Shown here one piece after another: positions 6,916-21,737 of a stretch of 22,096 nt of DNA. The notes beneath the pieces were generated by a model that saw nothing but the letters and a program-made list of their open reading frames with translations, did no database searches and was not told the origin of the DNA. Source of the DNA: a virus. Within the stretch, counting starts at the first letter, position 1; every line of letters starts with the position of its first letter. Location of the stretch: positions 1 to 22,096 of IMG/VR virus record IMGVR_UViG_3300026277_000001. One strand, written 5' to 3'. The translations under genes and the position numbers were made by a program.

Positions 6916-6950
6916 CTTGTTCCTCTTGAATATCTTGCGTAAAATGCCCA

Positions 6951-8672
6951 TCACGCGGCGTAGTTTGGTGGGAGTTGGTTCTGTGATACGAACTTGATTT
7001 CGTAGCCTAGAGTATCTGTGTACTCTGTTGAGAACTTGATCTTTGCCTCAACTCTATCCAACTTACTTGCATCTCTCTTTGCTTCAATGATCTTTGCTGG
7101 GAAAGTAAACGTCCAGTTCTTGAAGTAGGTAGTACCTCCTGTAGTACCCATGTAGATGTTACTCAGGAATTGCGCGACAAGAAGCTGCTTTACATTCTGC
7201 CTGTATTTCTCATACTGTATGAGGTCTTCGAAGAGAATGGTAAGCTCAATCTCAGTTTCGCGTTGTTTCCGGGTGACCGATTGCAAACGCTGACTATTGA
7301 CGGCGGGAAAGTTTCGCGTGCGCGGGATCTTGAAGATAAGCTTCCAGTCCAGGACCTGATTGTATGCGGTAGTGCCTGCTGTACCTGAGAGTGGGTCAAT
7401 AAACCAGGCTGTTTGCCAGCCACCTATACCTACCTCTTGAGGTTGCCAAAGAGCAGAGAGAGCACCTATAGCACCGAATGGAACGTTACCAGCGGTATTT
7501 TCCATATTGAGGGTTGTCCGGTCACCTATGGCCAACTGGTCTTGAGCGCCACCTTTGCAGGTGACCTTGTTCTCCTTTTCAGTACCACCCTCAATAGTGA
7601 CTTCCTCAAAGAAAGTGAGAGGATGTACCAACGCGTCTACGCCCGTATACTGCTCGAGTGTGACCGATTGGAGTATGTCGCCAGCTCCTGTTCCTGCAAG
7701 GCCGACCTGGTAAGTTTCTTGGATACCGATAATGCCGTTAATGGCCACTGAGCCGCCTGTGAGACCGCCGCCGAGTGCTACACCAGTAGCAGCGACACTG
7801 GCAAACACCTGCTGAGTGTAGAAGGTACCGTTTCCGTTGGCAGCCGCTGGCATGCCACAAATAACCGTCTCTGTGATCGTCTGGCCGAAGATGTTTGTAC
7901 CTGTGATGACAACGGTCCCCACTGCTGACGATCCGGTCACAACCAATTGGAGAATTGAGCCAGGGCCTATGGTGTTGGGCTGTGTAGTCAAACTTATTGG
8001 GAAGGTAGCAACAGCCGTTGTGGTCTTCAATACCGTAGGTGATGCTGGTATCGTGGCCTGAGATGGGTTGCTTCCCACAACTGACCGACCAAACCACTCA
8101 GCACAGTTGTCAAGATAGAAGTCCTGTTCGAACTTCCCGACATCGACAACCTTATTCAGGTTCTTAAAGTTGGTATTCCTGGAAAGTGTACCTCTTTGCT
8201 CTTCAGGTGAGTGCTTTGCTATCTTCTCCTCAGGTGTTTCAAGCATCGCTGGCGTTAAGCTGCTAGCCGCTGGTATTGCCCATATCCTGACAATGCCACC
8301 TGTGAGGCCTGTCACTGTCACACCTGAAGCATCTACAGTGCTATATATCCCTGGTGTCACATACTCGAATGGCTGTTGACCTGCGCTGGTAGAGGCAATG
8401 GGTATCGTAGGTGTGGTACTCACCAGTGCGCTTATAGCCTGAGTGAAGTCTTTGCCAGTGACGATTATCGTTCCGGTTGCGAAGTTGCCTCTCACATCAA
8501 TGAGTAGCCTCGCACCTGAGAACACAGACCGGCCCGGTACAGCGTTTGGCTGTGTGGTCAAAGATGCTGGAAGGCTCGACACGGGCGTCGGCCCCAACAC
8601 CAATTGGAGACCAGGATTAGTAAGGCTTTCTAAGGCGATTCCTACCCGGCCCAATGCGGAATTTCCACTCAT
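6951..8672 (-). CDS. Major tail protein (tail tube) with duplicated beta domain
   Basis: 573 aa, far longer than a usual tube protein (about 150-300 aa). The start ATG has AAGAAGGTAAG just upstream. Residues about 320-573 look like the tube domain: 'VTLEQYTGVDALVHPLTFFEEVTIEGG', a charged beta region, and a C-terminal 'KAKIKFSTEYTD'-like end (both shortened or paraphrased from residues 335-560). Residues about 137-200 contain another tube-like segment (LSRNTNFKNLNKVVDVGKFE). Two related beta domains, 34-133 and 224-315, are added. Its place just before the chaperone pair and the tape measure is diagnostic. No ATPase or sheath features appear, supporting a non-contractile tail. Confidence 0.8.
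   Translation of the reverse strand: MSGNSALGRVGIALESLTNPGLQLVLGPTPVSSLPASLTTQPNAVPGRSVFSGARLLIDVRGNFATGTIIVTGKDFTQAISALVSTTPTIPIASTSAGQQPFEYVTPGIYSTVDASGVTVTGLTGGIVRIWAIPAASSLTPAMLETPEEKIAKHSPEEQRGTLSRNTNFKNLNKVVDVGKFEQDFYLDNCAEWFGRSVVGSNPSQATIPASPTVLKTTTAVATFPISLTTQPNTIGPGSILQLVVTGSSAVGTVVITGTNIFGQTITETVICGMPAAANGNGTFYTQQVFASVAATGVALGGGLTGGSVAINGIIGIQETYQVGLAGTGAGDILQSVTLEQYTGVDALVHPLTFFEEVTIEGGTEKENKVTCKGGAQDQLAIGDRTTLNMENTAGNVPFGAIGALSALWQPQEVGIGGWQTAWFIDPLSGTAGTTAYNQVLDWKLIFKIPRTRNFPAVNSQRLQSVTRKQRETEIELTILFEDLIQYEKYRQNVKQLLVAQFLSNIYMGTTGGTTYFKNWTFTFPAKIIEAKRDASKLDRVEAKIKFSTEYTDTLGYEIKFVSQNQLPPNYAA
7728..8573 (-). repeat. Duplicated beta (Ig-like) domain in the major tail protein
   Basis: Copy 1 covers residues 34-133 (8573-8274) and copy 2 residues 224-315 (8003-7728). 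Shared landmarks in order are SLTTQPN, a Gly-rich strand, 'VRGNFATGTIIVTGKD' against 'VTGSSAVGTVVITGTN', and 'VDASGVTVTGLTGG' against 'VAATGVALGGGLTGG'. The copies are spaced by 190 residues, so one sits near the N-terminus and one in the middle of the protein. Confidence 0.8.
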
Positions 8673-10287: not shown

Positions 10288-10590
10288 CTATGTTTTGACT
10301 ATGAGATCAAGAGGACATTCTGTGTGATCAAGATCAAAATGCTCAGGTCTACCAGCTACACGATACGAATTAATTTGACCTGCAATATCAGCATTCTGGT
10401 CTACTAAGAGATCTCCTAAACGTATGTCCACGACACCCCCAATGGTATAGCCCCAATGTGAGAATGAAGGTTCTGCACCTCCCATGTTGCTTTTCATGCG
10501 CATATCTTCGTTTTCATCAATTTGCACTAGAATATTCGTTTTGATAGTAGTAGTGCCTCTTTTTTGTGTGACACGTCTTGTGTTGCTCAT
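10288..10590 (-). CDS. Stopper-like head-closure protein, 100 aa
   Basis: Start taken at ATG 10590-10588, which overlaps the tailspike stop as ATGA; an upstream in-frame ATG at 10605 would add only five residues and a longer overlap. A basic start (MSNTRRVTQKRGTTTIK) is followed by a small beta-barrel-like body with 'GDLLVDQNADIAGQINSYRVAG' (partly quoted) and 'HFDLDHTECPLDLIV'. Phage head-closure proteins of about 100-110 aa (SPP1 gp16-like) show a similar 'gD.l.d...g..y.V.g.p...l.Hte..l' pattern. It sits just before the gp10-like gene, as stoppers usually do. The family assignment is moderate. Confidence 0.6.
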   Translation of the reverse strand: MSNTRRVTQKRGTTTIKTNILVQIDENEDMRMKSNMGGAEPSFSHWGYTIGGVVDIRLGDLLVDQNADIAGQINSYRVAGRPEHFDLDHTECPLDLIVKT

Positions 10591-12515
10591 ACAATACCAA
10601 CCCATGCACCACTTGATTTGACATAAATACGCTGATTAACCGTACCCGGTGTGTCTGTTCTGAAGTAAAAATCTCCATTGCTTCCCATGCCTGACGATGG
10701 TACTCCTGAGCCGGAAAAGAGCGTGGGGCCGCTCCCAAGCTTCGCAGCATTGCCTACCTGGACAATTCCCGCCGCACTTTTTTGAACATATGTATCAAAG
10801 CCATTGCCGAACCAGATCTGACCTGCTGCATTGTTGGCAAAGTCATTCGCGTAGGTATTGCCTCCATCAGTGAAAAGGCCGAATGCATAGCCATTCTGCA
10901 GAGCAAAGCCGCCACCGTTGGCCTTGCTCATGGTGTTCATGGCAAAGATGGCATCTCCTGTTTGCCCAAAGGCTTTGAAGCCGTTGTAGCTTCTCATGTT
11001 CGCCATTTGGAACGTGCCACCAGTGCCAGGACTCCCATCGAGTACGAGCCCTTCAACGGTGATCATCCCTGCTGAGAAAGGATTGAGATAACCCCCAACA
11101 ATAGCAGTACCTCCAGTTTGATATACATTCAGGTCATAGATGTTCCCGCTAGTATTCCTCTCATCTATCGCTCCAGCGTTGCAATCATATATTTTGCCTG
11201 ATATATGACATACATTTGCAGTTGCAGCAGTTGTGAGACCTCCACTCTGATAAACCTGTCCTGCATATGGTGTCTGTCCTGCTTGTTGTCCTAGTTGTAG
11301 ACCTCTTCCTTGTCGGCTAGCATCGGCTGTCGAGCCTAATTCCAGGCATGACGATTGAAAATCGTTAGCTAGATTGACCAGAGCACACGTATCGCTCCCT
11401 TCGATCTGGCAACTGCTGAGAACAAGCTCGGCAGCCTCATTAAGCAGCGTCACCGAATTGTTACCGATCGGGGTAGCCCACAGGTGGCAATGGGCCATGC
11501 GGAGCGCAACACAGTTTGGCCCAATGTGGGCAACATGTGAGCCTGAGGCAAAGCCATTCACTGCGATCCATTGCATGTCCGTTGGTCCGCCAATCTCGTA
11601 AGCAAACCCGTTACAGTCGTGGGACATCACGTCGTACCAGCGTGGCATAAAAGCATTGTTTGGGGCGCTAGGGTTAGCAGACCCATTGTAATCCATCAAA
11701 ACATTGCCGCTATAGCCGTTCTTGATCTCGACATGCTCAAGGACATGGCGATGTCCGTAGACACGGATGGCATAGGATGGCCCTGCCGTTTGATTCGCTT
11801 TGTTGCCATCAAGAGTCATATTGCGGAAGCCAAAGTTGGTTATTGCAGTATTTGATCCTGATTGGGGTGCCGCTGCAAGGTTGATGCTGCTTGTCAGTGC
11901 GCTAAAAATATCAGTATTTGCACCGTTTTTGAGTCTGACAATTGTCAAACCTGGGCCAGCACCGTCGTCAATGACATTGCTATAGCATGGTTGGTTGCCT
12001 GTAAGATAGAGTCCAGGTGGATAGTAGACCAGAGCAGCGCCTATGTTATTTGCCGCTGCTCTTGCATTGGCTATAGCTGTGGTCTGATCCGTGCCATCCC
12101 CCAATGCTCCGTAATCCCTGACATTGATCACAAGCGGAGAGGCTGCTGGTGCTGGAAGCACACCAGCAGGAGCTACACCCGCGCCGACGGTGCCAGGAAG
12201 AATATCAACAGGGTCGGGATCAAATTCACGCGGACCTGGCTCGCTGGGAAGCTTTGCCGTCACATAGTGCTTCCATCTGCCAGCTGTATCCACATCGGAT
12301 AGCATGTATTGGTAGGATGCTTTACCCTTTGCAGCATCTGTAATTGTCCATACGCCTGTGCATACTTTTGATGTATTTGCATATTCATTAAGCATGGTGA
12401 GAGTAAAGCTATTGCTGTTGCATCCTGTGAGATCAATGGCTTTACCATCATCATCAACTAACTCAACATTATATGGAGGGTCTATAAACCCTATATAACG
12501 CGGAGAGTTCCCCAT
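10587..12515 (-). CDS. Tailspike/tail fibre with pectate-lyase-like beta-helix
   Basis: 642 aa in three parts. Residues 1-90 are a small beta domain like the N-terminal virion-anchoring domain of baseplate proteins ('YIGFIDPPYNVELVDDDGKAIDLTG' in part, then 'GVWTITDAAKGKASYQYMLS'). Residues about 100-128 are a Pro/Ala linker. Residues about 128-580 form a right-handed beta-helix introduced by the pectate-lyase-3 hallmark 'INVRDYGALGDGTDQTTAI' and a 'YYPPGLYLTG' turn. The C-terminus ends 'GSNGDFYFRTDTPGTVNQRI', a short module common at fibre tips. Such proteins bind and often cleave surface polysaccharide; no catalytic residues can be assigned here. GAGGG lies upstream of the ATG. Its place among neck genes is unusual. 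Confidence 0.8.
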   Translation of the reverse strand: MGNSPRYIGFIDPPYNVELVDDDGKAIDLTGCNSNSFTLTMLNEYANTSKVCTGVWTITDAAKGKASYQYMLSDVDTAGRWKHYVTAKLPSEPGPREFDPDPVDILPGTVGAGVAPAGVLPAPAASPLVINVRDYGALGDGTDQTTAIANARAAANNIGAALVYYPPGLYLTGNQPCYSNVIDDGAGPGLTIVRLKNGANTDIFSALTSSINLAAAPQSGSNTAITNFGFRNMTLDGNKANQTAGPSYAIRVYGHRHVLEHVEIKNGYSGNVLMDYNGSANPSAPNNAFMPRWYDVMSHDCNGFAYEIGGPTDMQWIAVNGFASGSHVAHIGPNCVALRMAHCHLWATPIGNNSVTLLNEAAELVLSSCQIEGSDTCALVNLANDFQSSCLELGSTADASRQGRGLQLGQQAGQTPYAGQVYQSGGLTTAATANVCHISGKIYDCNAGAIDERNTSGNIYDLNVYQTGGTAIVGGYLNPFSAGMITVEGLVLDGSPGTGGTFQMANMRSYNGFKAFGQTGDAIFAMNTMSKANGGGFALQNGYAFGLFTDGGNTYANDFANNAAGQIWFGNGFDTYVQKSAAGIVQVGNAAKLGSGPTLFSGSGVPSSGMGSNGDFYFRTDTPGTVNQRIYVKSSGAWVGIV

Positions 12516-14115: not shown

Positions 14116-14388
14116 CTATTCCTCCAATGATCCTGGCGTTTTCCGTTCCCTAAGATTGCCTCTTTCCTGCTTCATATATGCATTCTGCTCAGTTGGCGTT
14201 GCTAAACGATGTCCCAACTTTTGAAGCTCTTCTACATCATGCTCTCTGGCATGAGCAGGCGGATCTATCTCCAGAAAATGTCCCTTCTGCTGGTAGTTCC
14301 TCGCATATGTATGTACTCCCGCTATGATCTTTTCATTGAGAGCAACGTTTCCATCACTATTCTGTTCGTGATACATGAGAATTGACAT
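14116..14388 (-). CDS. Hypothetical head-region protein, 90 aa
   Basis: Its ATG overlaps the capsid stop by one base (TAATG), a typical coupled start. The product is charged and helical with many His, Glu, Gln and Arg residues ('GVHTYARNYQQKGHFLEIDP', 'HDVEELQKLGHRLATPTEQN', ending 'RKTPGSLEE'). No family is recognised. It could be a minor capsid or head-assembly factor by context. Confidence 0.6.
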   Translation of the reverse strand: MSILMYHEQNSDGNVALNEKIIAGVHTYARNYQQKGHFLEIDPPAHAREHDVEELQKLGHRLATPTEQNAYMKQERGNLRERKTPGSLEE

Positions 14389-15830
14389 TAAGCAGCCCTC
14401 ACTCTACCAATTTTTGCAGCAAACGCAGGAGCTCTCAGAGCTAGCGTCTTGTCAGAGTTCAATGCAAACTGACGACTACGTGCATTTACCACAGCTAGAA
14501 GCTCGGTCTGGATCGGATTAACTTCAGGACAAACGAGAATATCCGGGTCGCGCGGGATGAGGTAAATGTCCTCAGTAACCTGCGTGCCAGTTTGTACGCG
14601 CGGGAAAGTAACACCATCGGAAATGGCATTAGCACCGGAAGAGGCAACAGTAGCCCAATACAAGGTGTTGGTGGCAGTAGGATTTTGGATCAATCCGGTG
14701 TCTGTAAAGGAGGTTACTGCAGCGTCATTGATGTCATAAGCTGCGACCAGCGCATACAGGCTCTCGGCGCCGCTAGAAGTGCTTCTGAATATGCGATATC
14801 CGAGAATATCGATGACATTGCCGTCAGCATCGGTAGGAGCTGGTGTTGTCCAAGTGAGAACAACATTCTTGCCATCGGCAGAAGGTGTTTGTGATGCCTC
14901 AGCACTGGCAGCAGTCAATCCGTATCTGGTGACAGCTTCCACCCTGTAGTAGTAGGTGTTTGCAGCAAGGAGGCTAGAACCCGTGCCAGTATTGCCAGTT
15001 GTGCTAATGGTTCCCATAGTCCCCTGATTGCCCATAAAGCTTGAAATGATGATGGGGATGTTACGATACGACTCGACTTCCACACCTGCATCAATGGCAT
15101 TGTCTGCTACTGGCGCTCCTGGATCTCCATAGTCATCTCGCAAGAACATGCGTTTCATCACCTGATTGTAACGTGCGTTCTGAACGTGAAGCCCATTAAG
15201 GTAGGATTGCATCTTGGGGGACATCATCCAGAAGTAGTCCATGCCAAGCTCTTGGGCGTATCGACCTCTGACAGCATCAATAGCATTGTCCATCATCAGG
15301 AATGCCAGGAGCTGAGTATTGGCGTCAATCTTGTTGGCATTGGCAACCATGATGTCCACGCCGTCCCATTGCGGTCTCTTCGTATTGAGCGTGGCAGCCG
15401 CTGAGCCATACATATGCGTGGTCTCCTCCAACCACACCATAGCTTTGGCATGAGCCCCAAGCTCAAGGTCGAACATGTTCCCGTTCGCACGTGCAACCTG
15501 AACCATGAACTTGGACAGATCCCCGATGGACTCGGTATGCTTGATCGGAAATTGCCCTTGAGTGTAGGTCGAGTTGGAAGCTGCTACCGATCCTGTTCCA
15601 CTGGTAGGAGGTGCTTCTAGCGTATGTTGAGGCTGTGGGAGTGCAGTACGCTTGTTGAAGAAGAATATGTCAGTTTCCCATGTGCGGCGCGGGATCGCTC
15701 TACCTAATGGCCCCCATTTGCGCTGCAGCTCTGTAAGCGTGCTGTCAATCTGCTTGAGGATGAGATTGAGAGCGCCACCCGATGATGCTAAGCTGAAGGC
15801 CTCCCTGATCTCCCTGAGACTAGCAGGCAT
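14388..15830 (-). CDS. Major capsid protein (HK97-like) with FN3-like insert
   Basis: 480 aa with AGGAGGGA upstream of the ATG, placed right after the protease/scaffold gene. Helical N-arm with 'REIREAFSLASSGGALNLIL' fits the start of HK97-fold capsid proteins, followed by E-loop-like and P-domain-like segments ('KAMVWLEETTHMYGS', 'WDGVDIMVANANKIDANTQ', 'DYFWMMSPKMQSYLNGL'). Residues about 272-388 form an extra beta sandwich ('LLAANTYYYRVEAVTRYGLT', 'LTWTTPAPTDADGN', 'ILGYRIFRSTS', 'AVTSFTDTGL'), the pattern of a fibronectin-III domain. The A-domain resumes after it ('DIYLIPRDPDILVCPE'). The protein lacks a removable N-terminal delta domain that I can define, as scaffold function lies in the upstream gene. 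Confidence 0.85.
   Translation of the reverse strand: MPASLREIREAFSLASSGGALNLILKQIDSTLTELQRKWGPLGRAIPRRTWETDIFFFNKRTALPQPQHTLEAPPTSGTGSVAASNSTYTQGQFPIKHTESIGDLSKFMVQVARANGNMFDLELGAHAKAMVWLEETTHMYGSAAATLNTKRPQWDGVDIMVANANKIDANTQLLAFLMMDNAIDAVRGRYAQELGMDYFWMMSPKMQSYLNGLHVQNARYNQVMKRMFLRDDYGDPGAPVADNAIDAGVEVESYRNIPIIISSFMGNQGTMGTISTTGNTGTGSSLLAANTYYYRVEAVTRYGLTAASAEASQTPSADGKNVVLTWTTPAPTDADGNVIDILGYRIFRSTSSGAESLYALVAAYDINDAAVTSFTDTGLIQNPTATNTLYWATVASSGANAISDGVTFPRVQTGTQVTEDIYLIPRDPDILVCPEVNPIQTELLAVVNARSRQFALNSDKTLALRAPAFAAKIGRVRAA
14667..15017 (-). other. Fibronectin-III-like domain insert in the capsid protein
   Basis: Codons for residues 272-388. The domain shows FN3 hallmarks: 'YYYRVEAVTRYGLTAAS' strand, 'VVLTWTTPAP' (the conserved Trp strand), 'GYRIFRS' (Tyr-x-I/V-x-R strand) and 'SFTDTGL' end strand. 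It lies between 'IISSFMGNQG' and 'TLYWATV' of the capsid fold, so it probably projects from the shell surface. Confidence 0.75.
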
Positions 15831-15831
15831 G

Positions 15832-16365
15832 CTAAATCCCTCCTATCTGTATATCACCATCAAAACTATGCTGAGCGTCCATAATGCCCATTAGTTCAAC
15901 TTCAAGCTCTTTGAGTACTCTCTCAGCGTTGTACCATTCAGGCTTAGGTCGACTACGATCAAGTAGCTCAAGACGTGTATTGTAATCTTTCATTTGCTCT
16001 TTCATGTAGTCCCCATTGCGGTAGTAGGACTTCTTGGGCTTCTCCTCAGAGTTAGAACCCTCAACCATACTCTTGCGCTGGGGGAACGTACGAGGTGCAA
16101 GCTTCTGCTGCATCTCAGTGAGCTTTGTTGCAAATGAGTCTTGCATCTCAGCAAACTTCTGATCAAGCTTCTCTTGCATGAGTTGTTCCGGCGTCTTTGG
16201 ATCTTGAATGATATGACCTGACTCTTGCAAGAGCTTTTTAGCATCCTCAACAGTGAGCTTAGGAAGCTCCTGCTGTACTACCTGTGGTGGAGGAAGCTCG
16301 GTAGTTCGTTCTGCCAGAGCAGCCTTCAGTTCCTCCAGAAGCTGTGCCTTCTCTTCAGGCGTCAT
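15832..16365 (-). CDS. Probable nested scaffold protein (internal start in protease gene)
   Basis: In frame within the protease gene, ATG at 16365-16363 (Met268) is preceded by GAGAGGA ending about 5 bases before it. The resulting 177-aa product begins MTPEEKAQLLEELKAALAER and contains the helical, Glu/Gln/Lys-rich part plus the basic C-terminal tail. Lambda C/Nu3 and similar phages make a free scaffold from an internal start in the protease gene. Coiled-coil character and the site support it; translation is not proven by sequence. Confidence 0.45.
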   Translation of the reverse strand: MTPEEKAQLLEELKAALAERTTELPPPQVVQQELPKLTVEDAKKLLQESGHIIQDPKTPEQLMQEKLDQKFAEMQDSFATKLTEMQQKLAPRTFPQRKSMVEGSNSEEKPKKSYYRNGDYMKEQMKDYNTRLELLDRSRPKPEWYNAERVLKELEVELMGIMDAQHSFDGDIQIGGI

Positions 16366-17166
16366 AAATTCCTCTCTTTCTGGAGATGCAGGCTGCTGGC
16401 CTGTACTCTCCTTACACTCCATTCCAAGGAATGAAGCTAGTCCATTGTGTGCATTTGCTAGATACTCTAGCGTCTTAGCGCTAAATTTCGCACCTACCTC
16501 AGTAATACCTAGAAACTTGAGTGCATCCGCACGTTCCATATTCTCAGGTGCGCATTCTAAACCTATTGCTTTAGCGAGATAGTTGTGAGTAGTTTCGAGA
16601 GATGGTAGATTTAATGCTTCATGAGGTTCTTTAAATTCTTCTATGAGTGAAGTATCTTTGAAAGTGAATATCTCAGTAAGGTCTTGAGGTTCCTTGGACT
16701 CGGAGACATACTCTACGCGTGCGTTGGGTATGCCAGGGGATGAGGTAAAGTCAATGCCAGTGAGACGGATATTCTCCCCGCCTACCATCGGGTATGGCTC
16801 GTCTTTGTCGATGTACATCTCTGCGTTAACAGCTCGTAGGGATTGCGACTTGATGTAGCCACCTTTCACAAGCTCTACAACCTCATGGCCCGCCTGGGTG
16901 TCCGGTACGTCAATCAGTGCAAACGCTTGGTTCCCTTCCTTGCCTATGGCTGCAATCTTGCCGACAATCTCATTGGTAGCATCCATGTATGCAGAGTCAT
17001 GTGAGAGGTAGACCGTAAGAGGTAGGGCATTAGTGTCACTGAGCTGTACTTGAGCAGCTTGCACAAGACGATTGACCGTCTTAGCAGGATATTTTCTGCC
17101 ATTCAGAGATGTGGCATCATCTTCTAGGAAGATAGACTTTACACGAGCTATGCGGTTTTCTGCCAT
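15832..17166 (-). CDS. Head maturation protease fused to scaffold domain
   Basis: 444 aa; ATG with GAGAGGT upstream. Residues about 1-155 form a prohead protease domain: 'RVKSIFLEDDATSLNGRKYP', 'PLTVYLSHDSAYMDATNEIV' (His56 as candidate catalytic residue), 'GGYIKSQSLRAVN' (Ser107 or Ser109 as candidate nucleophile) and 'LTGIDFTSSPGIPNARV', the family's usual ending. Residues about 265-365 are Glu/Gln/Lys-rich and coiled-coil-like, followed by a basic tail, a scaffold. Such proteins cut the scaffold and capsid arms during head maturation and are digested. It precedes the capsid gene by 1 base. Catalytic residues are inferred from spacing, not proven. Confidence 0.82.
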   Translation of the reverse strand: MAENRIARVKSIFLEDDATSLNGRKYPAKTVNRLVQAAQVQLSDTNALPLTVYLSHDSAYMDATNEIVGKIAAIGKEGNQAFALIDVPDTQAGHEVVELVKGGYIKSQSLRAVNAEMYIDKDEPYPMVGGENIRLTGIDFTSSPGIPNARVEYVSESKEPQDLTEIFTFKDTSLIEEFKEPHEALNLPSLETTHNYLAKAIGLECAPENMERADALKFLGITEVGAKFSAKTLEYLANAHNGLASFLGMECKESTGQQPASPEREEFMTPEEKAQLLEELKAALAERTTELPPPQVVQQELPKLTVEDAKKLLQESGHIIQDPKTPEQLMQEKLDQKFAEMQDSFATKLTEMQQKLAPRTFPQRKSMVEGSNSEEKPKKSYYRNGDYMKEQMKDYNTRLELLDRSRPKPEWYNAERVLKELEVELMGIMDAQHSFDGDIQIGGI

Positions 17167-17373: not shown

Positions 17374-17565
17374 TCAGTATAGCACACGTTGTTCTGATGT
17401 GCTAGCCTCTTGCTTCTCATCAAGCTCTGACCACAATCTATTGATCTCCTCACGCGATATGCTATGGTCTTCTTTGCATCCCTTGCAATATAAGTGTATA
17501 GAAGTTTGATCGATTATAGCAAGCTTACGATGCATCTTATTGCATGTGATAGCTTTTCTATTCAT
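17374..17565 (-). CDS. Small zinc-ribbon protein, Com-like
   Basis: 63 aa; the ATG overlaps the portal stop by 4 bases (ATGA) and a GGAAGGAAAG ribosome site precedes it. The pattern is 'ITCNKMHRKLA...LYCKGCKEDHSISREE', that is C-x3-H then C-x2-C with a KLA motif in between, similar in plan to Com-family zinc ribbons (phage Mu Com activates mom translation by binding mRNA). One of the usual four Cys is a His. The C-terminal third is helical and acidic. A metal-binding RNA/DNA-binding protein is plausible; the exact role is not known. Its stop lies 20 bases before the tRNA-like element. Confidence 0.65.
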   Translation of the reverse strand: MNRKAITCNKMHRKLAIIDQTSIHLYCKGCKEDHSISREEINRLWSELDEKQEASTSEQRVLY

Positions 17566-18059
17566 TCTTTCTTTCCTTCCACATCCAACGAATACGCGTA
17601 TCTCTCATCACCAATCGCCAGCCATAGCAGGTCAAAATTGAGATCTATGGCAGGGACTGTTTCAATGGGCATAGGATCACCAGATGGGATGTACGAGAGG
17701 GTTATGTGAGGTGTATAGCCGTGCTCAGCATTCGGAGGGTAGCCAGCCTCTTGTAGGACCTTTACCAGCCCTTGACGCCATTCTGACAGCCCTGGTGCAT
17801 CCACTGAAGCATAGACGGGAGTAGGCTCCCCATCGGGTACTGAGGTGAACCGGCCTATGCCAGATATCCGGGCCTGTAGAGCAGGTGCGTTCTTGGCATA
17901 GGATGATACAGCCTGCTTCAGTTTGTCGGTATCCCCCAGTTGGGCCTTGTCTCCCAGGAAAGCAAGGGTCATGTGAAGATCATCGATCAACTCACCAGTG
18001 GGAAGTACCAAGGCCCGGGCCTCGCTTGGCTTGAGGAAGAAACCAGCCATCACACCAGT
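17562..18059 (-). other. 2H phosphoesterase domain at the portal C-terminus
   Basis: Codons for residues about 567-731 of the portal polypeptide. The domain opens with 'TGVMAGFFLKPSEA', carries the first HxT as H595-M-T597 in 'DDLHMTLAFLGD' and the second as H684-I-T686 in 'HGYTPHITLSYI', 89 residues apart. That is the full signature of the 2'-5' RNA ligase/2H phosphoesterase superfamily; both His and both Thr are present, so activity is likely. Confidence 0.85.
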
Positions 18060-19757
18060 CCAGTTTGCCTCTTGCATCTGACGTTCTAGCCAAATGGTTT
18101 CAGCTATGCAGGCATTCATAGCTGCTTCACGCTGCGCAGGGAGTCGGAAAGCATGGCTCAAAAGATACGCAGGATCATACTCTGATGGCATGTGACGAAA
18201 TTTGCGCATATTCTCATCCCTCTCTTTCGGCTTCTTATCCTTCTCAGGAGGTTGCTTATCCTGTGGTGGCTGGTCTTTGTTACCCTGATCATCAGGGTTA
18301 TTCTGGTCACCCTGCGCAAGACGTTGCATAGCCTGTTGAGCACCTTGCAGGGATAGCTCGGCCTGTTGTGTCTGCTCTTGCTCTAAGGTTGCCAGCCGTG
18401 CCACAGGGGTGATGACATTGCCAGTGGTGACAGTTGGTACATCGCCACCTGGAATAGAGACGCGCCCACGTTCTTGACGTGCCTCATCTCTGGTGAGCGT
18501 TCCGTTGCCGATCTCTTTATTCTCAATTTCCGCAATGTCTTTATCATCCCTGTAGTCGGCATGTCTGGTCTTGACCTTCCAGTCCTCTACACCTAGCCCC
18601 GTCTTCACTGCTCTATAATTCAGCTTCTCAAGTATCCTATTCTCTAGTGGTATAACCTTATTGTAGATAAAAGATTTATTCTGGCTCTCGCCTGTACCAC
18701 CGCCTATATTGCCACTTTCAATGATACCCAACATAGCAGGTGGCACCCCATAGACGACCAATGCTCTATCACGCTGGTTATCCTGACTCTTGTCAAAATC
18801 AAGCTCAATAGAACCTTTGCCATATTCGTGTATCTCACTCCCCCCATACATGACAGGTGGAATATGCGCGTTTTCTATACCTGTGTAATTCTCTTTATAC
18901 CATTTAATATACCTACTTGCATCATCCTCATCTGAGTCGTCTCCCATACCTACCCAATATGAAGGCTTGCCCCCTTGCCTAAAGAACTTTTCACCCCATG
19001 TCACCATTGATCGATCTAAGAACACCGGGTCCTTCAGCTTTTCAATGGGGGAGAGAGCTTTCTTTTTTGACTTGGGGTCTGGTAGCCACCATCTGATAAT
19101 CTCGCGAGGCTCAAATCTCACAACCTCGGTACTCTTCTCCAGGCGTTGGGTATAGCCAGTGATAACGCCATGCTGGTCAAAGTGTGTGGTCATGGTTATC
19201 GAGTCTACTGTGTAGAGGTTCGCTACAAGACCATCAGGGCCATATGTCATCTCAGCAAAGGCTTCACCAAAGATAAGTAAATCAGTTGCAATTGAGTTGA
19301 AAAACTGTAAAAAGTCTTCTTCTATGTCTTCAAAGTTAAATAATTGCTTTACTCTCGCCTCATTTTTAGGATTGCCTTTACCCTGCTCAATCTCAATAGT
19401 CTCCCAGCCACCGGATATCATGCGCTCAGCAGTCGTGTCTACGCAGCCTGAAACCCACTGGTTTCCACAATAGACCAGGTAGCATGTCTCTTTCTTCTGC
19501 CGATCATCTTGCGATCCCTCACGTATGAGACCAAAAGAGGTGTCATCCCATGCCATGGAGAGGTTCTTTGGCCCCCTGGGCTGTGGAACTTTCGTACTGC
19601 GCTTCGATGCTGCTTCTAGATTGATAATGCCCACGTTACGCTCGTATAGCTCTGAGGTGTGGGAATTGGGAGGATAGTTAGGTGCCTGGAATGGACGTTC
19701 TATCACACGGGAACGCCGCTTAGGGATGCGTATCCAGTTGGGGAAGTTGATTGCCAT
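17562..19757 (-). CDS. Portal protein fused to 2H phosphoesterase domain
   Basis: 731 aa in one uninterrupted frame. Residues about 60-430 match phage portal proteins: 'VSGCVDTTAERMISGGW', 'FNSIATDLLIFGEAFAEM', 'VRFEPREIIRWWLPDP', 'VYGVPPAMLGIIES', 'SFIYNKVIPLENRILEKLN'. Portals form the 12-fold ring through which DNA enters and leaves. Residues about 440-510 are Gln/Pro/Lys/Asp-rich and probably disordered. Residues 511-566 are helical. Residues 567-731 are the 2H domain with both HxT motifs. Usual portals are about 400-550 aa, so this is a true C-terminal addition. No frameshift is seen. ATG follows the previous stop by one base. The ring therefore could carry an array of phosphoesterase domains. 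Confidence 0.85.
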   Translation of the reverse strand: MAINFPNWIRIPKRRSRVIERPFQAPNYPPNSHTSELYERNVGIINLEAASKRSTKVPQPRGPKNLSMAWDDTSFGLIREGSQDDRQKKETCYLVYCGNQWVSGCVDTTAERMISGGWETIEIEQGKGNPKNEARVKQLFNFEDIEEDFLQFFNSIATDLLIFGEAFAEMTYGPDGLVANLYTVDSITMTTHFDQHGVITGYTQRLEKSTEVVRFEPREIIRWWLPDPKSKKKALSPIEKLKDPVFLDRSMVTWGEKFFRQGGKPSYWVGMGDDSDEDDASRYIKWYKENYTGIENAHIPPVMYGGSEIHEYGKGSIELDFDKSQDNQRDRALVVYGVPPAMLGIIESGNIGGGTGESQNKSFIYNKVIPLENRILEKLNYRAVKTGLGVEDWKVKTRHADYRDDKDIAEIENKEIGNGTLTRDEARQERGRVSIPGGDVPTVTTGNVITPVARLATLEQEQTQQAELSLQGAQQAMQRLAQGDQNNPDDQGNKDQPPQDKQPPEKDKKPKERDENMRKFRHMPSEYDPAYLLSHAFRLPAQREAAMNACIAETIWLERQMQEANWTGVMAGFFLKPSEARALVLPTGELIDDLHMTLAFLGDKAQLGDTDKLKQAVSSYAKNAPALQARISGIGRFTSVPDGEPTPVYASVDAPGLSEWRQGLVKVLQEAGYPPNAEHGYTPHITLSYIPSGDPMPIETVPAIDLNFDLLWLAIGDERYAYSLDVEGKKE

Positions 19758-19758
19758 G

Positions 19759-20211
19759 TTACTCTTGCTCCTTTGCCAGTTGCTCCAATCTAGAACGCTC
19801 TTGCTCTAACCACTTCAGAAGCGAAAGAGCTTGTTTAGGCGTAAGTACTGCTGTATCATCCATATAGTACTTAGCATCTGATTTGCATTCAATCCATATA
19901 GTAGTACATATGTAGCTTGTTGCATAACTAACCTCATAGTCGCCTTTTTCGTCAATCTTTCCATCATGTATCTTACTCACCAGCTCATCTAATTCTTTTG
20001 CCATATGATCTTCAGTAAAGTACTGAATAACACGTGTATCATACGTTGCTAGTACCTTGCCGTCCTTTTTCACATCGATCAAGTGTACTGTGTAGGGATA
20101 GGCCACGTCATGCCTACGAGCAGTATGCTGATATGCTGAGAGACCTCGCTCGCCAAGCATTGCTATGAATCTCTCTGGTGTTAGATCTTCCTCTTGTTGT
20201 TCTATCTCCAT
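19759..20211 (-). CDS. Hypothetical protein between terminase and portal, 150 aa
   Basis: The ATG overlaps the terminase end by 10 bases, with GAGGATGA upstream. Acidic ends flank a mixed body: 'LTPERFIAMLGERGLSAYQH', 'YTVHLIDVKKDGKVLATYDT', 'VSYATSYICTTIWIECKSDA' and a helical end 'LSLLKWLEQERSRLEQLAK'. No known domain is recognised, and no membrane segment or signal peptide is visible. The place suggests a packaging or early head role; function unknown. Confidence 0.7.
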   Translation of the reverse strand: MEIEQQEEDLTPERFIAMLGERGLSAYQHTARRHDVAYPYTVHLIDVKKDGKVLATYDTRVIQYFTEDHMAKELDELVSKIHDGKIDEKGDYEVSYATSYICTTIWIECKSDAKYYMDDTAVLTPKQALSLLKWLEQERSRLEQLAKEQE

Positions 20212-21737
20212 GCTAGTTCATCCTCCTCTTCATACTGTTGCTTCTCTTTCTCTTCTTCAGTTTGCTTATCGACTACCATACCACCTACACTGCGAGGCAT
20301 GCCCAACTCTTCACAAGCCATTGATGCATTATCCACCTGATCATCATTCGCACCCAAGGGGAATAACAGAAGCTCATCCTCCCATTCATGTAACCATGAT
20401 GCCTGTTTGGGGTGGAACACCTTACTTGACTCGTAGTAGACAGCAGCCGTTGTAGCACGTGCCACCTTGTCCTTGACTGGCTTGTATTCCTTGACGGGTA
20501 AGCCTTGCCTACGAAGCTGCTGGACAAGGGCTAGCTGGTAGGCTACAGTCTCAATTTTTATGAAGCTGGGACGATATCGTTGGTAGAGCACAGATGATTG
20601 CTGTTGCTGAGCAGGGTTATCCAAGCGGTCACGAAGTCGGCCTATGAGGAGCAAGTCACGATCTGGTGTCACAGCCCAGATGCACATCACGGTGTAATCT
20701 GCGGTTTGCTTAGTCGAGATAGCCAGGTCCTCAGTCATGAACAGCCAGCAATTCTTGATCAGGAACCGCTTGATACCAGTGTCAGTTTCTAGCTGATAAT
20801 AATCATTCTCAGTTGTGAAATAGCGGAACCATTGCTTTTTGAATTGCCCGCCCCCAGCGGGTACCGGGCGCTGCTGAAAAAGTCCTGCATAGCCCATACT
20901 TCCAAGTTGCTTTTTGAACCTTGTAAGGATGCTCTCATTAAAACGCGCTTTCCACAGTAGTTCACCCTCTTCTTTACGGGGATCTTCCCATCCAAGGGTA
21001 GTTGAACACCTGCTTGATGCTTCGAATTCTGCAGGCAAGTTTAAATGTTCCCAGCCACCTAGCTCAAGAATATGACCTGACACGTCTTGTGAGTGAATAC
21101 GGTGCCCTACTACAACCATCGCGCCCGTTTGTTGATCATTCAACCGTGTTGACCAGGTATTATCAAACCAATCTATAGCTGCTTCTCTTTTTGCATCAGA
21201 CTCTTTTTCATCTATATTGTGTGCATCATCTAGTATTAATATATCTCCGCCTTCACCCGTTGTGCTTGAGCCAACAGATGTAGCCATTCGATAGCCTAGT
21301 TGACTGGTTTCAAACTTTGTTTTTGCATCCTGATCTTTTGTAAGATGTAAGCGCCACCCATAGCGCGATTGAAACCAGGGAGACTTGATAGCTCGGCGTG
21401 TCTTGAGGTTATCGCGTGTTGCCAGATTCATGGCATAGGAACCACACAACAGACGTGTAGCAGGATTGTTGAGGAGAAGCCAAACAGACCATAGAACACT
21501 AATGAGAGACGATTTCCCATGGCGAGGTGGCATGTTGACCAGTAACCGGGTGATATTCCCTCGGCTCACAGCCTCTAGATGCTCAGCAATCGCTTCCAGG
21601 TGCCAACCCGGGGTGAATGGGCGACCCGGTTCAATTACTGGCCATGCCATAGTAACGAACTGCTTGAAGCTGAAACGTGCGTTCTCAGCATCGAACTCTT
21701 CTAGGGGGCTAAGGTCCTTTACTAGCATCATAACCAT
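20202..21737 (-). CDS. terL: Terminase large subunit
   Basis: 511 aa, the typical length. N-terminal ATPase: 'LLVNMPPRHGKSSLISVLWS' holds the Walker A variant (Lys75), and 'GEGGDILILDDAHNIDEKES' holds Walker B (Asp170/Asp171). Further motor signatures are 'GSYAMNLATRDNLKTRR' and 'VVGHRIHSQD'. C-terminal RNase-H-like nuclease: 'LFMTEDLAISTKQTADYTVM' with its first Asp, 'FIKIETVAYQLALVQQLRRQ' and the closing 'FPLGANDDQVDNASMACEEL' with an acidic pair. It pumps DNA into the head and cuts concatemers. The ATG overlaps the upstream stop (TAATG). Confidence 0.93.
   Translation of the reverse strand: MVMMLVKDLSPLEEFDAENARFSFKQFVTMAWPVIEPGRPFTPGWHLEAIAEHLEAVSRGNITRLLVNMPPRHGKSSLISVLWSVWLLLNNPATRLLCGSYAMNLATRDNLKTRRAIKSPWFQSRYGWRLHLTKDQDAKTKFETSQLGYRMATSVGSSTTGEGGDILILDDAHNIDEKESDAKREAAIDWFDNTWSTRLNDQQTGAMVVVGHRIHSQDVSGHILELGGWEHLNLPAEFEASSRCSTTLGWEDPRKEEGELLWKARFNESILTRFKKQLGSMGYAGLFQQRPVPAGGGQFKKQWFRYFTTENDYYQLETDTGIKRFLIKNCWLFMTEDLAISTKQTADYTVMCIWAVTPDRDLLLIGRLRDRLDNPAQQQQSSVLYQRYRPSFIKIETVAYQLALVQQLRRQGLPVKEYKPVKDKVARATTAAVYYESSKVFHPKQASWLHEWEDELLLFPLGANDDQVDNASMACEELGMPRSVGGMVVDKQTEEEKEKQQYEEEDELAWR

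Follow-up and report, generated by a model that had tools for sequence, protein, structure and literature searches.

Why would the portal protein of a tailed phage end in a 2H phosphoesterase, and what could such an enzyme do in a phage head? One gene of a 22,096-base IMG/VR virus record raises this question; the record comes from a soil phage, may be a fragment, and is called the window here over its full length. A preliminary description of this DNA had reported a continuous frame with a complete HxT/HxT pair that joins a 2H domain to a phage portal protein, and had likened it to the anti-CBASS enzyme Acb1.

A portal protein and a 2H domain share one open frame

The fusion gene, the parts of its portal half and the neighbouring head genes are as follows.

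20202..21737, minus strand: terminase large subunit (phrog_38 E 1.4e-91; PF17289)
17562..19757, minus strand: portal-2H fusion gene, a single open frame of 731 aa with an ATG start (PF04860 and PF13563)
18468..19454, minus strand: HK97-type portal domain, residues 102-430 (PF04860 E 1.5e-35; phrog_12 portal E 1.8e-47; TIGR01537 below cut-off; solved portals 9lbn, 9lw9 and 6te8 matched by sequence)
18318..18404, minus strand: extended helix C-terminal to the portal core, residues 452-480, presumably the crown (helical in the full-length prediction)
18174..18314, minus strand: Q/P/K-rich disordered linker, residues 482-528 (pLDDT < 50 over 482-528; relatives without 2H end in the same linker)
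18069..18140, minus strand: predicted helix entering the 2H domain, residues 540-563 (differs between relatives, with a shorter version in L004)
15832..17166, minus strand: S77-like prohead protease with a scaffold-like C-terminal part, the next gene after portal-2H (PF03420 E 9.9e-6, just below cut-off; phrog_207 head maturation protease E 8.8e-11)
14388..15830, minus strand: major head protein (phrog_752 E 4.1e-15)

The window holds the head and tail cluster of a tailed phage (terminase, portal-2H, S77-like protease, major head protein, head-tail adaptor and tape measure), with the portal gene between the terminase large subunit and the head protease and capsid genes. At 10587-12515, between the head-tail adaptor and the tail genes, lies the gene for a protein of 642 aa that has a pectate-lyase-like (rhamnogalacturonase/epimerase) domain. 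Scans of genome contigs with portal alignments, run for host assignment, found no relative.

The frame at 17562-19757 on the minus strand is uninterrupted by a stop over its 731 aa, and the stretch first singled out (17562-18059) corresponds to residues 567-731, essentially the entire 2H domain. Pfam places Phage_portal and 2_5_RNA_ligase2 in this one frame, both above their curated cut-offs, and PHROGs divides the protein in the same way, with portal families matching the first part and 'RNA ligase' families the last. The continuous frame and the fusion of a 2H domain to a phage portal were thus described correctly. PF04860 matches with 123.4 bits against a curated cut-off of 39.1 and is covered from profile position 3 to 320 of 321, while the match to TIGR01537 (portal_HK97) reaches 88.8 bits, below the equivalog cut-off of 112.05; judged by these profiles, the portal part is a member of the broad PF04860 portal family outside the narrow HK97 equivalog. 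The full-length model comprises an ordered portal core, helix 452-480, the linker (482-528), helix 540-563 and a separate, well-predicted 2H domain.

Portal and 2H stand in one uninterrupted frame in the independent contigs L002, L003, L004 and L017 (the portal sequences of L002 and L004 being identical), and the more distantly related portals of L024 and L025 (43% identity in the best segment) carry a 2H domain in their tail too. Since the identical join occurs in contigs from several different metagenomes, we reject a sequencing or assembly error that fused two genes as next to impossible. A search of other phage portals for the same tail, proposed in the preliminary description, thus found it in these six contigs and in many portals of a wider scan.

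The 2H domain belongs to a LigT-like branch

17583..18062, minus strand: 2H phosphoesterase domain, residues about 566-725 (PF13563 E 1.3e-9; PF02834 E 1.6e-7; best Foldseek matches 2H/LigT; block pLDDT mostly 78-92)
17967..17975, minus strand: first catalytic motif, H595-M-T597 (H and T invariant in 56 aligned 2H domains)
17700..17708, minus strand: second catalytic motif, H684-I-T686 (invariant in 56 aligned 2H domains; the scan pattern selected for this motif)

These two HxT motifs are the only ones in the 731-aa protein and lie exactly where the preliminary description had put the pair. The pattern with which relatives were collected included the second HxT only, so that the invariance of the first is unforced. 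When the 172-aa tail was shuffled and scored for an HxT pair at the observed spacing, such a pair arose in 0.26% of trials; evidence from homology is far stronger than this statistic. 2_5_RNA_ligase2 (PF13563) matches residues 594-696, above its curated cut-off, and LigT_PEase (PF02834) likewise matches the tail.

An AlphaFold2 (AF2) model of residues 541-731, computed with six sequences, reached a mean pLDDT of 76.8 and a pTM of 0.68. Compared with the PDB by Foldseek, it matched ThpR/LigT RNA 2',3'-cyclic phosphodiesterases first (1iuh E 1.3e-8, TM 0.65/0.68; 5h7e; 5ldm), followed by viral 2'-5' phosphodiesterases, Usb1 and AKAP18; no Acb1 was among the 50 PDB matches listed. The best matches among predicted viral structures were phage proteins, several of them annotated as RNA ligase, structural protein or capsid morphogenesis protein, and an Acb1 appeared only at rank 47. 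A profile of 56 related 2H domains searched against the PDB found ThpR-type structures at E about 1e-10, as against 0.014 for the penguinpox cGAMP phosphodiesterase and 0.029 for Acb1.

The domain thus shows the sequence and fold features of the 2H superfamily, a group of enzymes that hydrolyse cyclic or 2'-linked phosphodiesters: two HxT motifs in the symmetric 2H fold, a PF13563 match above cut-off and a Foldseek match to 2H structures. Comparison of the predicted tail with 2H families and Acb1, the check proposed beforehand, upheld the 2H fold in agreement with Pfam. The likeness to Acb1 fared less well: an HxT/HxT tetrad is common to both, but kinship is weak, with the profile E value of 0.029 set against about 1e-10 for ThpR and no match of the portal-2H protein to the Pfam Acb1 model (PF23474) at E<=0.1. 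We therefore reject membership of the Acb1 family. A ThpR orthologue is rejected as well, as TIGR02258 (ThpR) matches at E 3.5e-9 with 36.8 to 40.8 bits, below its equivalog cut-off of 65.7. Because ThpR-type proteins come first by fold and profile, TIGR02258 stays below its cut-off and Acb1 is distant, the portal-borne 2H is, by sequence and model, best placed in a LigT-like branch of 2H proteins, neither ThpR orthologue nor Acb1.

In alignment A10 (residues 73-77 and 124-129), the phage-head 2H set keeps near-invariant GxGRF and HITLxY, where the ThpR-type PH0099 has GIGVF and HITLGR; the position of the arginine may have moved in the phage-head set.

An optional, exchanged module under purifying selection

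The preliminary description held that only the fusion is seen, which was an understatement: in the relatives the 2H domain is optional, by all appearances exchanged, and under purifying selection. The same portal lineage occurs without it, and the domain is absent in L005, L006, L018, L019, L022, L023 and L026-L028. The portals of L005, L006 and L018 terminate in the same Q/P/K-rich linker, and in L026-L028 the linker runs directly into a short cysteine/histidine tail. What separates the near-sister portals of L025 and L026 is the 2H domain itself, cleanly inserted ahead of this tail in L025. On the portal tree, 2H presence needs three changes, at least two of which are forced by well-supported branches.

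Site patterns pair the window with L004 in the portal (24:2:0) and with L003 in the 2H domain (10:1:2). Maximum-likelihood trees of the same six rows resolve these forks weakly, and therefore the site counts carry the argument for exchange. Since portal and 2H disagree on kinship, the module appears to have been exchanged, and the conflict is best explained by recombination of the 2H module. Among four close members, NG86 dN/dS is about 0.08-0.11 for the 2H domain and 0.03-0.07 for the portal, rough values with dS near saturation; they place the 2H under purifying selection.

A short Cys/His motif (CxxC ... FPSGA ... HxxCxC) ends the portal tails of L019, L022 and L025-L028. To us it resembles the end of MuF proteins; PF04233 (MuF) does not match the similar tail of L019.

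Other genes lie downstream of some portals of this lineage that lack 2H: in L018 (5555-6172), directly adjacent, a gene for an Rv2179c-like 3'-5' exoribonuclease; in L006 a DUF6210 gene; and in L005 (5518-6510), again adjacent, an antisense HNH endonuclease gene, on a contig that also encodes a recombination endonuclease VII (6921-7520).

Related 2H domains on other head proteins

With the portal-borne 2H as query, a scan of virus contigs by 2H alignment gave 80 loci, and the counts therefore describe near relatives of the window's domain rather than phages at large. All 79 proteins checked carry the HxT pair, of which the second motif was part of the scan pattern and the first was not. The 2H domain lies more than 400 residues into the frame in 36 proteins, with matches to Phage_portal (24), Portal_Mu (3), P23-45 portal (1), MuF (3) and ADP-ribosyltransferase (2), categories that can overlap. 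It lies nearer the start in 28, with matches to Peptidase_S78_2 (8), Mu-like_Pro (5), Phage_capsid (4), DUF2213 (3), S77 (1) and MuF (1). The capsid cases place 2H near the start of a long frame whose match to the HK97-type Phage_capsid is strong in L041:4671-7655 and L073:4902-8279 and weak in L095:4833-7637 and L105:4983-7934. In L049, 2H stands at the start of an S77-type protease resembling the gene that follows the portal in the window. An ADP-ribosyltransferase (ART) is joined to 2H in L034:3645-6320, and in L068:2625-6185 a single chain unites a Mu-type portal (Portal_Mu), 2H and a weak ADP-ribosyltransferase match.

No close cultured phage was found, none covering 80% of the portal-2H protein, and cultured relatives carry 2H on neighbouring genes, not on the portal. 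In annotated phages the nearest 2H genes are from actinophages, mostly in or beside the head cassette, and are free or fused to proteases or MuF. A simple reading would be that a 2H gene lodged between those for portal and protease became joined, on more than one occasion, to one or the other of them.

Placement in the head and possible roles

Solved portal structures have their wide end and crown turned towards the capsid interior (PMC4493910; 80-alpha portal, PMC10541612), so that a C-terminal fusion should lie inside the head, at twelve copies per portal. By this analogy the 2H domain should sit at the portal vertex within the head, a location that fits its company of portal, MuF, head protease and ART. 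The portal would be a working one whose interior-facing C-terminus bears the 2H on a flexible linker, and the twelve copies in each head would surround the inner mouth of the portal channel as head-associated cargo, taking no part in the portal machine.

The 2H domain keeps its catalytic motifs invariant, evolves under purifying selection, is dispensable to the portal and moves between portals; taken together, this argues for an accessory enzyme, predicted to be active, that the head carries. We give a probability of about 0.6 to this as the best explanation, namely a working portal with an accessory, catalytically competent LigT/ThpR-like 2H as head cargo, most likely acting in the host. Its target there would be 2'-linked or cyclic phosphodiesters; candidate substrates are the 2',3'-cyclic ends left where host anti-phage RNases have cut RNA, or 2'-5' and cyclic oligonucleotide immune signals. 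The enzyme might be released by the neighbouring head protease and injected with the DNA, or might act on free portals and proheads late in infection. By analogy with phage T4, whose portal channel is about 28 A wide (PMC4493910), injection would meet an obstacle: a folded domain of ~160 residues would first need to be released and then threaded through this passage.

Two sub-cases of this explanation differ in role. The first, which we rate as possible but less likely than not, is counter-defence, in which the 2H, like Acb1 or viral 2'-5' phosphodiesterases, would cut CBASS, CRISPR type III or 2'-5' oligonucleotide signals. Viruses repeatedly use 2H/LigT-like phosphodiesterases against nucleotide signalling (PMC11410667; PMC9117128), and this use of related folds favours the idea, as do the accompanying ART effectors, which are joined to 2H in L034 and, by a weak match, in L068. 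Foldseek also matches the 2'-5' phosphodiesterases of rotavirus VP3 and a viral RNase L antagonist, and passages of Iyer et al. (PMC5512222; PMC9503650) already propose this role for portal- and MuF-borne 2H. The failure of PF23474 to match and the distance to Acb1 in the PDB profile search, where ThpR scores far better, count against it.

RNA end healing, by which the 2H would open the 2',3'-cyclic phosphates that host anticodon nucleases leave on cleaved tRNAs and so ready these tRNAs for kinase and ligase, we regard as possible but rather unlikely. Closeness to the ThpR/LigT RNA 2',3'-cyclic phosphodiesterases, the nearest solved relatives by sequence and fold, favours RNA 2',3'-cyclic ends as the substrate, in line with the TIGR02258 match, although its score is below that of a ThpR orthologue. 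Upstream of its terminase and portal-2H genes, one contig (L107:917-1843 and L107:3446-5041; L035:3501-5729) encodes an RNA ligase as well as a frame resembling the Pnkp kinase/phosphatase, and L004 has an AAA_33 kinase. Against this, of 39 records, many of which are fragments, just 4 matched the RNA ligase family PF09414 and 1 matched PF09511, so we reject RNA ligase co-occurrence as a general rule; Iyer et al. (PMC5512222), too, report not having seen these versions of 2H together with RNA ligases.

Three further readings are improbable. An RNase similar to Usb1 would trim or cut host RNA on entry, and an RNase role is among the suggestions in passages of Iyer et al. (PMC5512222). Usb1 is indeed among the fold matches, but at E 2e-4 against 1e-8 for ThpR/LigT, and it is unmatched in the sequence profile search; we give this reading little credence. 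Equally doubtful is a portal C-terminus that serves as a swappable cargo slot from which a tethered 2H, never injected, would act in place late on portals and proheads, removing a nucleotide signal or RNA lesion raised by head assembly itself. A purely structural role, with 2H aiding portal, scaffold or capsid assembly and its chemistry irrelevant, agrees with the attachment of most relatives found to head-assembly proteins, but we disfavour it, since close relatives lack 2H altogether, the domain is swapped between portals and both HxT motifs are invariant in 56 domains.

For the preferred reading, a catalytic cargo of the head, this lineage offers near-matched portals with and without 2H, so that cargo status, substrate and delivery to the host can be cleanly asked. 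If the 2H does defeat nucleotide-based defence, some phages would bring the antidote with them, ready fitted inside the head.

Comparison with known systems

ThpR/LigT proteins (1iuh, 1vdx, 5h7e, 5ldi) resemble the window's 2H domain in fold and in their two HxT motifs, and are its best match by sequence and structure. They differ in that the window's domain falls below the ThpR equivalog cut-off, belongs to a phage-head set with near-invariant GxGRF/HITLxY where PH0099 has GIGVF/HITLGR, and forms part of a head protein. The anti-CBASS protein Acb1 of phages T4 and FBB1, whose HxT/HxT catalytic tetrad has been described (PMC9117128), has in common with the window's domain the 2H fold, that tetrad and a phage origin. 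Acb1 differs as a free small protein with marginal sequence similarity (E 0.029), outside the 50 PDB matches listed and 47th in the viral library. Other hallmarks of Acb1 are an aromatic lid at the C-terminus that closes over the cyclic nucleotide, and the cleavage of cyclic oligonucleotide signals by which it defeats CBASS. Arthrobacter phage Wheelbite gp18 (2H with Peptidase_S78_2; about 37% identity) has one of the 2H domains nearest to that of the window in annotated phages, and its gene likewise lies in the head cassette, immediately after those for portal and protease; its 2H is carried by a protease domain, unlike that of the window, which is carried by a portal.

The closest precedent is the head-packaged effector fusion type (polyvalent/MuF/portal), marked by an effector fused to a portal or MuF protein, as found here, with MuF and ART among the relatives. 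Our literature search found no experimental test of any 2H-portal fusion. Passages of Iyer et al. 2017 (PMC5512222) report 2H fusions to MuF or portal proteins and propose an RNase or a 2'-5'/signal-degrading role, and passages of Iyer et al. 2022 (PMC9503650) repeat the proposal, with 2H packaged in the head and injected. The kind of fusion is therefore not new: portal-2H and its proposal as a packaged effector are known, and the window protein adds another example. As far as those passages on phage polyvalent proteins go, architecture and proposal are the same, with general lists there and one lineage in detail here. Our analysis adds the optional presence of 2H in one portal lineage, its clean insertion, its apparent exchange, an affinity that is LigT-like rather than Acb1-like, and joins of 2H to capsid proteins, which those passages do not mention.
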